A stretch of 9,507 bases of DNA, taken from NCBI GenBank assembly GCA_002401285.1, contig NVSQ01000024.1, positions 24,810 through 34,316 of the forward strand, written 5' to 3'. This DNA is from SAR202 cluster bacterium. Its GTDB lineage: Bacteria > Chloroflexota > Dehalococcoidia > UBA3495. This document shows, one piece after another, positions 114-5,025 of the stretch. The position numbers and the translations under genes were made by a program. The notes under the pieces are model-generated. The model did no database searches and was not told the DNA's origin. It was given only the letters and a program-made list of their open reading frames with translations. The stretch's first letter is position 1. Each line of letters starts with the position of its first letter.

Positions 114-1520
114 TTAACTCCCAGGTGCGCCGCCGCGGGTGGGCCGGCGGGTGCGGCGCTGGTCCCGGTAGTTGGGGGCGGTGATCGGCTGCCAGTTCAC
201 CGTCACGTCCATCAGCCGGGAGCCTATCTTTGGCTTGGCCTCTTCCAGTTCGTCGATGCTGAAGGCGCTGGTAATCACGGTGGGCAAGCGGGCCTCTTGC
301 CGGTGGACCACGATCTGGTACAGTTTCTCTTCGGCCCAGGCGGTGCTGGTCTCGGCTCCCAGGTCGTCCAAGATCAACAGTGGTACCGTCTTGAGTTGCT
401 CGAATAGCTCGTCGTAGCGGATCGGGCTGTCTGGGCTGAATGTAGCCCTCAGGTGGTCCAAGAGGGTAGGAACAAAGGCGAAGAAAATCGGGCGGTCACG
501 GCGCAGGCACTCCGCGGCGATGGCCACTGCCAAGTGGGTCTTTCCCGAACCTCTGGGTCCAGTAAACAGCAGCCAGCCCTCCGGGTCGGAGGCAAAGTTT
601 TCGGCGGCGGACTTGGCATGCTCCAAAGATACCCTGTCGGTGCGTCCGGCGGTGCTGCCGCCACCCGTATCATAAGAGGCGAAAGTCATCCTCCGCTGCA
701 TCTCAGTGGGCAGGTCTCCGATACTCCGGGCCAAGCGGGTGTTGTATTGGCCTAACTGATAGACATGGGAAAAGTCCTGAACCGACTCGATGCGGGTCCG
801 CAGGGACTCGTCCAGTTGTTGCAGGGGCCCTCGCACGGTGATGACGGTGGAGAGTTCAAGATTGAACCGGTGATTCATCACCTGGAACAGCTTCTCTTGC
901 GCCCAGGGAGTAGTGCTGTGGCTGCCCAGGTCGTCCAGGATGAGGACCGGGACGTTGCGTACTTGATCGAATAACTCGTCGTAAGACACGGGGTTGTCCG
1001 GTGAATACGCCCCCCGTAGATGGTCCAGTAAGTCGGCAACCACGATGAAGAACGTAGTCTGGCCTAGCTCGATGCACCGGTTGGCCACGGCCACCGCCAG
1101 ATGGGTTTTTCCGCTGCCGCTGGGACCGGTTAGCACCAGCCAGCCGGTCGGACGGTCGGCGAATTTGACGCAAGCTTCCAAGGCCAGTTTGAACAGATGG
1201 CTGCTGGCGGCGTCGGGCAGAGGACCGTCTTGGCGGGTGGAGGCGAAGGAGACGCGGCTAAGCGGACCAAGGTTGCTGTAGCGGCGCAGGGCGTCGATCC
1301 GGGCCGCGGGGTCCTTTGTTCCCTGGCAATCGCAGGGAAATGTCTGGGCGAAGTCAGGGTGGCCTACTGGAACGCGTTTGCTAACCCAGCCGGTGCCGTT
1401 GCAGATGGAGCATACGGGGCCTTCGTGCGGGCTATCGGGATACGCGGCCCCAGCGCCGTTCGTAGTCCTCGAGGTACTTTTGGCGGTTATCCTTCTGAGG
1501 ATGTCTCCCAGACTTTCCAT
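114..1520 (-). CDS. Helicase-loader ATPase with two tandem AAA+ domains (DnaI/DnaC/IstB type)
   Basis: Predicted 468-aa ATPase that would load or remodel the DnaB helicase during replication initiation, in the cytoplasm. Seen from the chosen start: a zinc-finger-like cluster C37-x2-C40 ... C63-x-C65 near 'GHPDF', as in DnaI-type loaders; a first AAA+ module with Walker A GPSGSGKT (132-139), Walker B VLILDD (192-197) and an arginine-bearing 'LRTRI'; then a second full module with Walker A GPRGSGKT (321-328), Walker B LLILDD (381-386) and 'IGSRL'. The modules are clear repeats of each other, sharing 'DLLDHLR/TLLDHLR', 'YDELF' and 'TVIT'. Usual DnaC/DnaI proteins are about 250-310 aa with one module. 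The ATG at 1520 is preferred over the longer open frame to 1649: it has a GGAAAG ribosome-binding site and gives the family N-terminus 'MESLGDILRRI'. It overlaps the end of the upstream DnaD-like gene by 89 bp in another frame. The loader role is inferred from family and operon. Confidence 0.85.
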   Translation of the reverse strand: MESLGDILRRITAKSTSRTTNGAGAAYPDSPHEGPVCSICNGTGWVSKRVPVGHPDFAQTFPCDCQGTKDPAARIDALRRYSNLGPLSRVSFASTRQDGPLPDAASSHLFKLALEACVKFADRPTGWLVLTGPSGSGKTHLAVAVANRCIELGQTTFFIVVADLLDHLRGAYSPDNPVSYDELFDQVRNVPVLILDDLGSHSTTPWAQEKLFQVMNHRFNLELSTVITVRGPLQQLDESLRTRIESVQDFSHVYQLGQYNTRLARSIGDLPTEMQRRMTFASYDTGGGSTAGRTDRVSLEHAKSAAENFASDPEGWLLFTGPRGSGKTHLAVAIAAECLRRDRPIFFAFVPTLLDHLRATFSPDSPIRYDELFEQLKTVPLLILDDLGAETSTAWAEEKLYQIVVHRQEARLPTVITSAFSIDELEEAKPKIGSRLMDVTVNWQPITAPNYRDQRRTRRPTRGGAPGS

Positions 1521-2190
1521 CGTACTTTCCTTCGTACTTCCCTTGGTCTTTCCCTTCGGAGGCCCAGCGCCGGAGTATCCCGGCGATGTAGCGCCAACTG
1601 CGCTTGTTCTCGGTGACGGCGATATGGAAGGCGCTTTCCAACCAGCCACCGGGGTATAGCTCTTCCGCCTCTTTCAACTCTTCGGCCAATATGGGGGAGA
1701 GCATGCCTATGTTCTCCTCGTAGAGAACGAATATATTGGGCCGGTCATCGGGCGCCGGTGTCACCGTCCCGGATAACGGTAGGCTTTTTTCCGGAATCGG
1801 GACGCCTTCCGCCATCATGCGTTTCAACGCGTCACGGTTTTGGTCCGTGTTCAGCAGGTAAAACTCGTTGTCCGATTCTCCTTCTTCGGCTGGATCACGC
1901 CGATGGCATAGAAAGATTCCCCGGTCGGCCGCGAGACGCAGGCCCCGGCGTATCTCCGCTGGGGCGTCGCCGGTGGGTTCGGCCAAGCCCCGCAACAACG
2001 TCCGGTCGTTGAGAAATTCCTGGGTGGTGACCATTCGTGGCCGGGTCCGCTGGCGGTGCAGCAGCCACAGCCCCCGCAGCGCCACCTTGAGTTCGGCCAT
2101 GTCCTGAATCTGCTCCAATAACGGTCCGAAGAAGGGATTGGGCGCCGGCGTATAGAGCGTGCCGGAGTTGAACCCTGGAAAGGGTTCCAT
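1432..2190 (-). CDS. DnaD-domain primosomal/replication-initiation protein
   Basis: A 252-aa protein with the architecture of DnaD-type initiation proteins, which bind DNA and remodel it so that the helicase can be loaded. The N-terminal part (about 30-95: 'ELKVALRGLWLLHRQ', 'EIRRGLRLAADRGIFL') looks like a winged helix. The C-terminal part (about 155-213) is a DnaD/DnaB2 domain: 'YEENIGMLSPILAEELKEA' followed by Y201-xxx-I205-xxx-W209, the YxxxIxxxW motif of this family. The tail is charged and repetitive (GKYEGKYDGK) and likely disordered. The start codon shares its A with the TGA stop of dnaB2 (TGATG), and no good ribosome-binding site is seen, so translational coupling is likely. The 3' end overlaps the loader gene. 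Position between helicase and loader ATPase fits a bridging role; that is inference. The symbol dnaD is withheld because orthology to the Firmicutes gene cannot be shown here. Confidence 0.85.
   Translation of the reverse strand: MEPFPGFNSGTLYTPAPNPFFGPLLEQIQDMAELKVALRGLWLLHRQRTRPRMVTTQEFLNDRTLLRGLAEPTGDAPAEIRRGLRLAADRGIFLCHRRDPAEEGESDNEFYLLNTDQNRDALKRMMAEGVPIPEKSLPLSGTVTPAPDDRPNIFVLYEENIGMLSPILAEELKEAEELYPGGWLESAFHIAVTENKRSWRYIAGILRRWASEGKDQGKYEGKYDGKSGRHPQKDNRQKYLEDYERRWGRVSR
1509..1560 (-). repeat. 12-nt coding tandem repeat that carries the loader ribosome-binding site
   Basis: On the minus strand the 3' part of the DnaD-like gene contains near-identical units of about 12 nt (GG(A)AAGTACGA-type), encoding the GKYEGKYDGK stretch. 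One unit supplies GGAAAG just upstream of the loader ATG at 1520, and that ATG lies in the next unit. The repeat therefore serves as coding sequence in one frame and as translation signal for the next gene in another. Confidence 0.6.
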
Positions 2191-3122
2191 CAGGCAGGTT
2201 CCGAATTCGGCATTGAGTAGAAACGCAGCAGGTTGTCTCGGAAAGCGAGGGTTACTTCGCCGGTAGGTCCGTTACGGTGCTTGGCAACGATAATCTCGGC
2301 GATGTTTTTGGGATATGGGCATCCCGGAGAGTGCTGGTCCCACTCCTCCTCGGTGTAATACATGTCCTCCCGGTGTATGAACATGACCACGTCGGCGACC
2401 TGCTCGATGCTGCCGCTGTCCCGTAGGTCGGAAAGCATGGGACGGTGGCTGGGCCGGTTGGTCACCCCACGACCGAGTTGGGAACAAATGAGCAGGCAGA
2501 TGTTAAGTTCGCGGGCCATACGCTTGAGTTCCCGTGAAATTTCGCTTAACTCTTGGACCCGATTGCCTCCGTAGTTTCCGGTGCCCTCGATTAGTTGAAG
2601 GTAGTCGACGACTAGGAGGTCTAGGCCGCACTCCAGGGATAGACGGCGTGCTCTACTGCGCATCTCCACCATGCCTTGGAAGGGGGTGTCATCGATGTAC
2701 ATGGGAAGCTCGGATTGGTGTCCAATGGAGTCAGATATCCGTTGAACGTCAGCTTCGGTAACCAGACCGAGACTAAGACGGTGGGAGTCAATCTCCGTGT
2801 TGGCTGCCAGCATTCGTAAAGCAAGCTGATTCCCGCCCATTTCCAGGCTGAATACGCCGACTTTGGTGCCGCCTTGACCAACGTTCAACGCTATATTTAG
2901 CGCAAGGCTTGATTTCCCCATGGAGGGTCGAGCACCCAGTACTATCAGATCGTCGCGCTGCATTCCGCCCAGTAACTCATCCAGGTCTTTATACCCGGTG
3001 AGCATCGGCGCTCTCGGCTGCACCTGAGACGCGGCAGCTGCGGCCCGTTTCTCTTGGTAGTCGCTGAGAATTTGTCCTAAGTGGATGAAGTCGCTTCCGG
3101 TTTTGTCTGAATCGTCAATCAC
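2190..3122 (-). CDS. DnaB helicase paralogue lacking the N-terminal domain (linker helix plus RecA motor only)
   Basis: A 310-aa protein closely similar to the C-terminal two thirds of the upstream DnaB. It keeps the linker-helix segment (about 12-32) that packs subunits into the hexamer, Walker A GARPSMGKS (63-71), the catalytic Glu of 'FSLEM' (E94), Walker B LLVVDY (D173), and 'KHRNGPTG' with the likely arginine finger R283. The N-terminal domain, which in DnaB forms the trimer-of-dimers collar and contacts primase, is absent. It starts with GTG at 3122 behind a strong GAGGAA site, so it is a real gene start and not a broken 5' end. Differences from the full copy and from usual DnaB include V242 in place of the Asp of 'SIEQDAD' and 'SLEMGGNQ' for 'SLEMSREQ'. 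It might be a second motor, a partner in mixed hexamers, or a decaying duplicate; an intact frame and good motifs argue against decay. Confidence 0.88.
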   Translation of the reverse strand: MIDDSDKTGSDFIHLGQILSDYQEKRAAAAASQVQPRAPMLTGYKDLDELLGGMQRDDLIVLGARPSMGKSSLALNIALNVGQGGTKVGVFSLEMGGNQLALRMLAANTEIDSHRLSLGLVTEADVQRISDSIGHQSELPMYIDDTPFQGMVEMRSRARRLSLECGLDLLVVDYLQLIEGTGNYGGNRVQELSEISRELKRMARELNICLLICSQLGRGVTNRPSHRPMLSDLRDSGSIEQVADVVMFIHREDMYYTEEEWDQHSPGCPYPKNIAEIIVAKHRNGPTGEVTLAFRDNLLRFYSMPNSEPA

Positions 3123-3153
3123 TACACTTTCCTCAGCACACCTAAGTTCATAG

Positions 3154-4518
3154 TTAGAAAGCTTCCACCCTCTGTATCGATTCGAAACGCAGCAGGTTGT
3201 CTCTGAAGTATAAGTTTATGTCGTCGGTGGGACCGTTCCGGTGCTTGGCCACAATTATTTCAGCGATGTTTTTGGGGTATGGGCGCCCCGGAGAGTGTTG
3301 TTCCCATTCCTCTTCGGTGTAGTACATGTCCTCACGGTGTATGAACATGACTACGTCGGCGTCCTGCTCGATACTCCCGCTGTCTCGAAGGTCGGAAAGC
3401 ATTGGCCGATGGCTCGTCCGGTTGGTCACACCACGACTGAGTTGGGAGCAGGTGAGCACGCAGATGTTCAGGTCCCGGGCCATACCCTTCAATGACCGGG
3501 AGATCTCGCTTACCTCCTGGACACGGTTGTCTCCGCCCTTACCACGCCCCTCGATCAATTGTAGATAATCGACGATGAGGAGATCCAGACCGTGTTCCAG
3601 GGAGAGACGGCGGGCTTTGCTCCGCATCTCCACCATTCCTTGAAATGGGGTGTCATCGATGTACATGGGGAGCTCGGACAGGCGGCCTATCGAGTCGGTG
3701 ATCCGCTGTTCGTCAGCTTCGGTAACCAGGCCGAGACGGAGACGGTGGGAGTCGATCTGCGCATCGGCGGCCAGGATCCGCAGAGCAAGTTGTTCCCGGC
3801 TCATCTCCAAGCTAAACACGCCGACGGTGGCCCCGTCTTGGGCAGCGTTGATCGACACGTTTATCGCCAGTGTGCTCTTGCCCATGGCAGGGCGCGCCCC
3901 CAGGACGATCATGTCGGAACGCTGCATCCCGCCCAGAAGCTCATCCAGGTCGTTGTACCCGGTGAGCATCGGCGTGTCGGATGCCAGAAGCGGATCGGCA
4001 ACGGCGGCCCGCTCTTCCAAGTATTGGTCGTATATCTGGCGAAGGGGCAGGAAGCCGCGCTGGGGTTGACCGGTGCGGACACCAAACAGGATGTCCTCGG
4101 CTTGCCGTAGCGTGGCGTCCACGTCGTCGGTGTCGTCATAGCCGATGACGGAGATGCGAGAAGCCGCATCGATGAGCGTCCGCATGGTTGAGGTGCGGGC
4201 GACCAGTTGGGCGTAGTGTTCCGAATGGGCCGAAGTTGGGGTAACGGAAACCAGATGACTGAGGTAGGCCATACCCCCGGCCGATTCCAACTGATTGGTG
4301 CGGGAGAGTTCCCGCGCCAATGTCACCTGGTCGATGGCCTCATTGCGCTCGAACAGAGAGCGGCAGGCGGCATAGCAGAGCTGGTTTCTTTCCCGGTAGA
4401 AGTCTTCCGGTTTGATCAATGAGGAGATGCGGACGAAACTGTCCCCATCGATCAACAACGACCCAACCACCGCTTCCTCCGCCTCCAAGTCGTGGGGAAG
4501 GAGTTTCTCCGCATACAT
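3154..4518 (-). CDS. dnaB: Replicative DNA helicase DnaB
   Basis: A 454-aa hexameric 5'-3' replicative helicase that unwinds DNA at the fork and recruits primase. The length is normal for DnaB. Seen: N-terminal domain opening with 'PHDLEAEEAVVGSLLID' (8-24), linker helix (about 155-175), then the RecA-type motor with Walker A GARPAMGKST (207-216), catalytic E238 in 'FSLEM', Walker B LLIVDY (D317), 'CSQLSRG', 'SDLRDSGSIEQDADVV' (375-390) and 'KHRNGPT' with likely arginine finger R427. After GPT the sequence reads DDIN instead of the usual GxV. The ATG at 4518 lies 18 bp after the rplI stop; a GGAAG overlaps that stop, about 14 nt from the start. The rplI-dnaB order is the conserved bacterial one, so this copy is taken as the housekeeping helicase, and the shorter copy follows 31 bp downstream. 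Confidence 0.95.
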   Translation of the reverse strand: MYAEKLLPHDLEAEEAVVGSLLIDGDSFVRISSLIKPEDFYRERNQLCYAACRSLFERNEAIDQVTLARELSRTNQLESAGGMAYLSHLVSVTPTSAHSEHYAQLVARTSTMRTLIDAASRISVIGYDDTDDVDATLRQAEDILFGVRTGQPQRGFLPLRQIYDQYLEERAAVADPLLASDTPMLTGYNDLDELLGGMQRSDMIVLGARPAMGKSTLAINVSINAAQDGATVGVFSLEMSREQLALRILAADAQIDSHRLRLGLVTEADEQRITDSIGRLSELPMYIDDTPFQGMVEMRSKARRLSLEHGLDLLIVDYLQLIEGRGKGGDNRVQEVSEISRSLKGMARDLNICVLTCSQLSRGVTNRTSHRPMLSDLRDSGSIEQDADVVMFIHREDMYYTEEEWEQHSPGRPYPKNIAEIIVAKHRNGPTDDINLYFRDNLLRFESIQRVEAF

Positions 4519-4536: not shown

Positions 4537-4986
4537 CTATTCTTCGATTTCCGCCGCTACATGAATCGTGGCCTGGATCTCGCCGGAGAACCGTAATACC
4601 ACGTCGTACTCGCCGGGCTCGCGGATGGTCTCGGCCGAGTCCAGAAGTCTTCGGTCGATATCTCTACCCACCGCCGAAGCTAATTCTGAAGCTATCCTGG
4701 TGCTGGTGATCGCGCCGTAATACCGGCCCGTAGGTGTTACCCGCGCGGTGATCGTGACGGTAGTATCGTCCAACGCGGAGGCCAATTCCTGCATATCCTG
4801 AGTTTCTTGGATCCGGGTCATGTCTCCCGCGGCCTTGATCTTGTGAAGCCGTTTCAAAACCTCCGGAGTGGCTATTTGCGCCAGACCCTGGGGGATCAAG
4901 TAATTTCGGGCGAATCCGTCGGCGACCCTTTTTATCTCCCCGGCTTGGGCCTGGTTGAGAACATCCTGAGTGAAAACGACTTCCAT
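4537..4986 (-). CDS. rplI: Large ribosomal subunit protein bL9
   Basis: A 149-aa protein of the 50S subunit, binding 23S rRNA near the base of the L1 stalk. The N-terminal domain shows the L9 signature as 'AGEIKRVADGFARNYLIPQG', a central helix connects it, and the C-terminal domain reads 'GAITSTRIASELA...GEYDVVLRF'. Length matches the family (about 148-150). The start is the ATG at 4986 and not the GTG at 4995: the ribosome-binding site AAGGAAG sits about 8 nt before the ATG, whereas the GTG overlaps that site. It is the first gene of the replication operon, with a TATAAT box about 40 bp upstream. The rpsF-ssb-rpsR genes that often precede rplI are not next to it here. Confidence 0.96.
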   Translation of the reverse strand: MEVVFTQDVLNQAQAGEIKRVADGFARNYLIPQGLAQIATPEVLKRLHKIKAAGDMTRIQETQDMQELASALDDTTVTITARVTPTGRYYGAITSTRIASELASAVGRDIDRRLLDSAETIREPGEYDVVLRFSGEIQATIHVAAEIEE

Positions 4987-5025
4987 GGTGGTCACTTCCT
5001 TAACACATTGGCTGAATTATCTTCT

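Follow-up and report, generated by a model that had tools for sequence, protein, structure and literature searches.

RSF1010 RepA, a plasmid DnaB-like hexameric helicase, is not known to have a DnaB N-terminal domain (NTD), and cores of DnaB itself can occur without it, either naturally or by engineering. Published N-domain-free cores include the RecA-core-only mycobacteriophage protein D29 Gp65 and the NTD-deleted core of Wildcat Gp80 (PMC4523182), as well as laboratory deletions (the beta-gamma fragment of E. coli DnaB, G40P DN109 and DN175, and H. pylori DelN2) in which a similar cut leaves the motor with or without part of the linker. The helicase activity of NTD-deleted H. pylori DnaB is reported to be reduced by 20-30% (PMC2761005). 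Truncated bacterial dnaB paralogues are also described in Orientia tsutsugamushi, where multicopy dnaB is carried on mobile elements (PMC10732058), and several dnaB and dnaC copies are reported from phytoplasma mobile units (PMC3750655). Here we analyzed a 9,507-nucleotide stretch of DNA from a SAR202 cluster bacterium (the window; contig NVSQ01000024.1, positions 24,810 to 34,316), in which a short, NTD-less DnaB paralogue is encoded directly downstream of the full-length dnaB gene. NTD-less DnaB cores are known from phages and constructs; what is new is one inside a dnaB operon, and no NTD-less DnaB paralogue beside dnaB was described in the open-licence PMC literature searched.

The short protein can be told apart from each of these systems. 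The phage cores are described as lacking the linker too (PMC4523182), whereas the short protein keeps a linker segment, and its closest kin is the adjacent chromosomal DnaB rather than a phage protein. The laboratory deletions were engineered, whereas the short protein is genome-encoded next to the full gene. The Orientia copies number 36-52, are mostly RAGE-linked and are called truncated by incomplete C-terminal motifs (PMC10732058), in contrast to the one intact-motor copy found here inside the dnaB operon. The two genes and the signal between them are as follows.

2190..3122, minus strand: short DnaB gene, NTD-less DnaB paralogue of 310 amino acids (aa) with a GTG start (open reading frame, Pfam, alignment, cluster P0001)
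3154..4518, minus strand: full-length dnaB, the parent paralogue, 454 aa (Pfam and TIGR matches)
3129..3134, minus strand: GAGGAA, ribosome-binding-like sequence of the short gene, ending 6 nt before the GTG

A first-pass annotation of this DNA had pointed out a 310-aa dnaB paralogue right after dnaB, with its own GTG, a ribosome-binding site, the motor motifs and no N-domain, and this description was borne out. The open reading frame (ORF) begins 31 nt downstream of dnaB, and its 310 codons are free of stops. The 310-aa protein P0001 is 99% identical to the short protein, and its cluster is listed with 98 member sequences, whose independence is uncertain, and 2 contigs. Comparison of the two copies, proposed in the same annotation, gave a purifying-selection signal, with nonsynonymous (dN) and synonymous (dS) distances of 0.161 and 0.944 by NG86 and of 0.147 and 1.405 by YN00, and hence dN/dS of 0.10-0.17. 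Because of the P0001 cluster and this ratio, the short ORF is very probably a real gene. Between the short and full copies dN/dS values are 0.121/0.935 in the core and 0.526/1.247 in the linker helix and loop; for comparison, the full-length gene of relative L002 gives 0.148/1.577 and 0.318/2.066. Protein-level selection, stronger in the core than in the linker, is favoured by the low dN/dS, this core/linker contrast and the absence of stops. On balance we lean towards reading the short ORF as a real gene, a partial tandem dnaB duplicate kept under purifying selection as an NTD-less DnaB that would serve as a dispensable accessory motor subunit.

As compared with bacterial DnaB (TIGR00665; Pfam DnaB_C plus N-domain), the short protein has the same motor core, catalytic motifs and fold, but it has no N-domain, falls below the TIGR00665 cut-off and adjoins a complete DnaB. 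It matches Pfam DnaB_C (2e-91), and a Pfam search gave no match to the DnaB N-domain PF00772, which the neighbouring DnaB matches at 4.3e-30; its TIGR00665 score of 336.3 bits lies below the equivalog cut-off of 385.25, as compared to 480.2 for the neighbour. An ungapped alignment with DnaB residues 156-452 shows 226 of 297 positions identical (76%), and Walker A GARPSMGKS, the FSLEM glutamate, Walker B VVDYLQL, the SQL glutamine and the AKHRNG arginine-finger segment are all kept.

2910..2936, minus strand: Walker A GARPSMGKS, residues 63-71 (alignment)
2841..2843, minus strand: retained FSLEM glutamate E94, presumably catalytic (alignment)
2604..2606, minus strand: Walker B aspartate D173 (alignment)
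2274..2282, minus strand: KHR of AKHRNG (K281, R283), presumed arginine-finger segment (alignment)
2397..2399, minus strand: V242, replacing the aspartate (D386 of the full protein) found in all other alignment rows (alignment)
3030..3080, minus strand: linker helix (LH), residues 15-31 (predicted structure, local confidence about 63-70)
2715..2756, minus strand: docking/determinant helix (DH), residues 123-136 (predicted structure, local confidence about 90)

The structure model reached a mean predicted local distance difference test score (pLDDT) of 86.6 with a wider alignment (53.4 in the first model), with just about 63-70 for the model blocks covering residues 11-40. Both helices are predicted in the short protein, and the sequence of its linker helix is diverged. 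The LH-DH module is reported to link neighbouring subunits and to be bound by DnaC and DciA (PMC9912922); using that account and an alignment with VcDnaB (W291), DH was located near residues 264-282 of the full protein, and by analogy it would be the counterpart of LH in the site that contacts neighbouring subunits and the loader. From these features we expect that the short protein folds as a DnaB motor and plausibly hydrolyses ATP, that recruitment of primase through an N-domain would be impossible for it, and that it may need DnaB for ring formation.

Along the minus strand the genes run in the order rplI, dnaB, short copy, DnaD-domain gene and twin-AAA+ loader, and the overlap of the short-gene stop with the dnaD start would allow translational coupling of the two.

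4537..4995, minus strand: rplI, ribosomal protein L9, upstream in the same gene run (Pfam and TIGR matches)
1432..2190, minus strand: DnaD-domain protein, 252 aa (Pfam and TIGR matches)
114..1649, minus strand: DnaC/DnaI-like loader with two AAA+ modules (domain matches)
2188..2192, minus strand: TGATG, short-gene stop overlapping the dnaD start (sequence)

Conservation of the dnaB-short pair was not seen among relatives; the closest of them have a single dnaB, which the first-pass annotation had itself named as the observation that would speak against its proposal. The nearest genomes are Chloroflexi bacterium SAT91 (L001) and Dehalococcoidia bacterium ALOHA_A2.5_21 (L003), with DnaBs 99.1% and 98.5% identical to that of the window; in both, dnaD directly follows dnaB, and there is one match per genome. 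In bins of 150 nt, the flanking DNA of L003 matches that of the window at 92-99% identity on either side, except for one bin at 87%; for L001 the values are 90-98% upstream and 78-97% downstream. Within the family, matches came from 48 of 50 genomes; six had two places, every second place being on another contig and only that of G004 close (52%). Within the order 237 of 250 genomes match at 1e-40, 229 at one place and eight at two or three, all on different contigs. An adjacent second dnaB match was found in none of the 48 family or 237 order genomes, among which there was no known-tandem genome as a positive control. Of 29 loci searched with the window proteins (L001-L026 and L048-L050), nine gave both dnaB and dnaD hits (L001-L005, L007, L025, L048 and L049). 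In all nine, the start of dnaD and the end of the dnaB match lie at most about 85 nt apart; for L006 no dnaD hit was obtained. Because the closest relatives carry a single dnaB, the short copy is dispensable and lineage-restricted.

Other short forms were encountered. An independent NTD-less DnaB paralogue lies away from dnaB in G004 (L050:2233-3300); called as 310 aa (P0121) and the sole member of its cluster, it keeps a linker-like segment and has a changed FSLEM glutamate (FDLGM). In G031 (L049) the sole dnaB match begins at DnaB residue 170, and the 297 nt between it and the contig end contain no DnaB match; this short frame is a rearranged dnaB or a misassembled contig end. Rejected as short DnaB proteins were P0126 and P0164, from contigs of 930 and 912 bp and probably cut ends, P0157, whose N-terminus looks like a frame-shifted gene call, and the short frames of G008 and G072, which run into contig ends.

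The spacer between dnaB and the short gene suggests how the copy could have arisen. Read in the short gene's frame it gives YELRCAEESV, comparable to ATLRQAEDIL at DnaB residues 135-144 (17 of 20,000 shuffles score as high), and in one in-frame register GAGGAA falls where the parent gene has GAGGAC (Glu-Asp); with moderate confidence, GAGGAA may derive from linker codons in that register. The GGAACCTG-CTGA words at the end of the short gene also occur in the spacer that separates dnaB from dnaD in L001 and L003. We propose that a dnaB segment beginning shortly ahead of the linker helix and reaching the end of the gene would have been copied between dnaB and dnaD, that the start codon and ribosome-binding site may have come, again at moderate confidence, from old linker codons, that purifying selection would have kept the copy open as an NTD-less DnaB, and that its product would be co-expressed with DnaB. 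More tentatively, its likeliest role would be to modulate DnaB or its loader, as an accessory motor subunit that the cell can do without; the DH surface could accept the DnaB linker helix or the loader, and the altered LH could make the short protein an asymmetric or poor ring partner.

With regard to age, in a tree of 39 rows the short protein clusters with its nearest relatives' DnaBs (100/99). Its branch, 0.39 long, lies beside all ten of these, which share a branch of 0.02 supported at only 87/68. This tree was built without P0002, P0003, P0047 and P0049 (likely mosaics), most other listed proteins, the phage rows and 12 of 23 loci, which lacked a found forward ORF. Between the window and L003 or L001, dS is 0.21-0.24 for dnaB, 0.09-0.15 for dnaD and 0.11-0.36 for the loader. 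Because dS between the short gene and dnaB (0.94-1.4) exceeds these window-relative values (0.09-0.36), the short copy is older than its patchy distribution, having been either lost in relatives or imported by recombination. A duplication of the resident dnaB more recent than the divergence from L003 was rejected on dS (0.94-1.4 as compared to 0.24). Phage origin was also rejected: all 1431 matching phage records show less than 60% identity (the ten listed, 42-49%), and an IMG/VR scan gave no relative. P0002 and P0003 are full-length DnaBs, each with a single crossover from full-type to short-type sequence, and collapse of the tandem would give this orientation; the P0003 allele differs from the window's, and the two are real recombinants or assembly chimeras. 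P0047 and P0049 are DnaBs resembling mosaics of two lineages, a warning on chimeras in metagenome protein sets.

These data leave some room, on a smaller share of our confidence, for a transient duplicate, a neutral leftover that some of the population still carries, that recombination with dnaB removes and that has no dedicated role. The lineage-restricted distribution, the single crossovers of P0002 and P0003, the loss of the FSLEM glutamate from the independent G004 paralogue and the plentiful degraded dnaB copies reported on Orientia mobile elements (PMC10732058) all fit such a history. However, dS of about 1 together with dN/dS of 0.10-0.17 and no stop, and the 98 member sequences listed for the P0001 cluster, count against it, and P0002 and P0003 may be products of chimeric assembly, which is what P0047 and P0049 look like.

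Somewhat less probable, and in our view unlikely, are mixed hexamers, in which the short protein would join DnaB rings and leave fewer N-domains and hence fewer primase sites. The shared gene run, the 31-nt spacing and the 76% identity are compatible with this, as is the report that NTD-deleted H. pylori DnaB fails to bind the DnaG C-domain (PMC2761005). Furthermore, the conservation of DH is roughly in line with that of relatives, 36 of 77 rows having an equal or lower identity. LH, however, is only 50% identical between the short and full proteins over 16 columns (full 156-171, short residues 12-27), as compared to a mean of 83% for relatives, and none of 77 relatives of similar core identity has an LH identity as low; P0001, P0002, P0003, P0047 and P0049 were left out of this comparison. 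The diverged linker helix is mildly an argument against a like-for-like mixed ring, and the absence of the short copy from the closest relatives also counts against it. We regard as doubtful a natural two-subunit replicative helicase in which a primase-blind subunit, made between DnaB and DnaD, would be enabled by its altered LH and conserved docking surface to insert into or cap DnaB rings and would tune primase density or loader use in a lineage-specific way. Of the earlier interpretation as a whole, the motor-only paralogue with intact catalytic residues, purifying selection and no primase-binding domain stood, and conservation of the pair did not.

Equally doubtful is a separate primase-free helicase, in which the short protein would form rings of its own. 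N-domain-less G40P reportedly does unwind DNA. The motor core is complete, and an NTD-less, thioredoxin-tagged Wildcat Gp80 core is described as unwinding DNA (PMC4523182); against this, NTD-deleted DnaBs of E. coli and B. stearothermophilus and NTD-deleted G40P are stated to keep ATPase and to have no helicase activity (PMC2761005). It is very improbable that misassembly attached the dnaB of a second strain to this operon, even with mosaic dnaB proteins in these metagenome sets and probable strain mixtures, given that a search with residues 1-45 (reaching proteins of about 170-540 aa that share 5-residue words) matched P0001 only and no full-length protein with this N-terminus, that 98 member sequences and 2 contigs are on record for the P0001 cluster, and that the short copy runs at its 3′ end into dnaB-dnaD spacer words also present in L001 and L003.

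Several observations weigh against the reading that we favour, that of a selected accessory subunit. Two other DnaB places tie for the 10 upstream codons (score 13), making the breakpoint uncertain, and the synonymous distance is at odds with an origin solely by duplication of the resident gene on this branch. Part of the purifying selection may predate the truncation. Of the 118 columns in which at least 98% of the other rows agree, the short protein breaks 5, including D386V in SIEQDAD, which is barely above the 0-4 seen in near relatives (counted in the short protein and in 18 rows chosen from 130, in an alignment without P0001, P0002 and P0003 and with P0047 and P0049 kept). The ordinary DH identity means that coordinated LH-DH change is not supported, and LH identities of 0.44-0.56 occur in the more distant full-length L005, L006 and L007, beyond the compared range. 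Finally, a copy absent from the nearest genomes is not needed.

The loader gene downstream has features of its own. In the window its two AAA+ modules, joined in one chain, share 53% identity across 127 aa and both contain Walker A and B, and two Walker A motifs are present in the loaders of the window and of 10 of 10 relatives checked. Because three loader dimers are described on the DnaB ring in the BstDnaB-DnaI complex (PMC3791466), the twin-module protein could by analogy be a covalent loader dimer. At window 1432-1649 this ORF runs across the 3′ end of dnaD, and similarity to the loaders of L001 and L003 likewise begins inside dnaD. In L001, loader dS against the window is 0.16 in the first third and 0.45-0.54 in the rest, which suggests recombination inside that gene.

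DnaB is usually treated as a homohexamer whose N-domains set the number of primases. If a primase-blind subunit does work with DnaB, such a motor-only partner, supplied by the dnaB operon itself, would offer a natural test of how many N-domains a replisome needs, and also of whether unequal subunits can build hexameric helicases. If the short copy is instead a dispensable duplicate, it would show a route from a full-length gene to a core-only DnaB, which bears on the proposal, as set out in PMC4523182, that such cores are ancestral.
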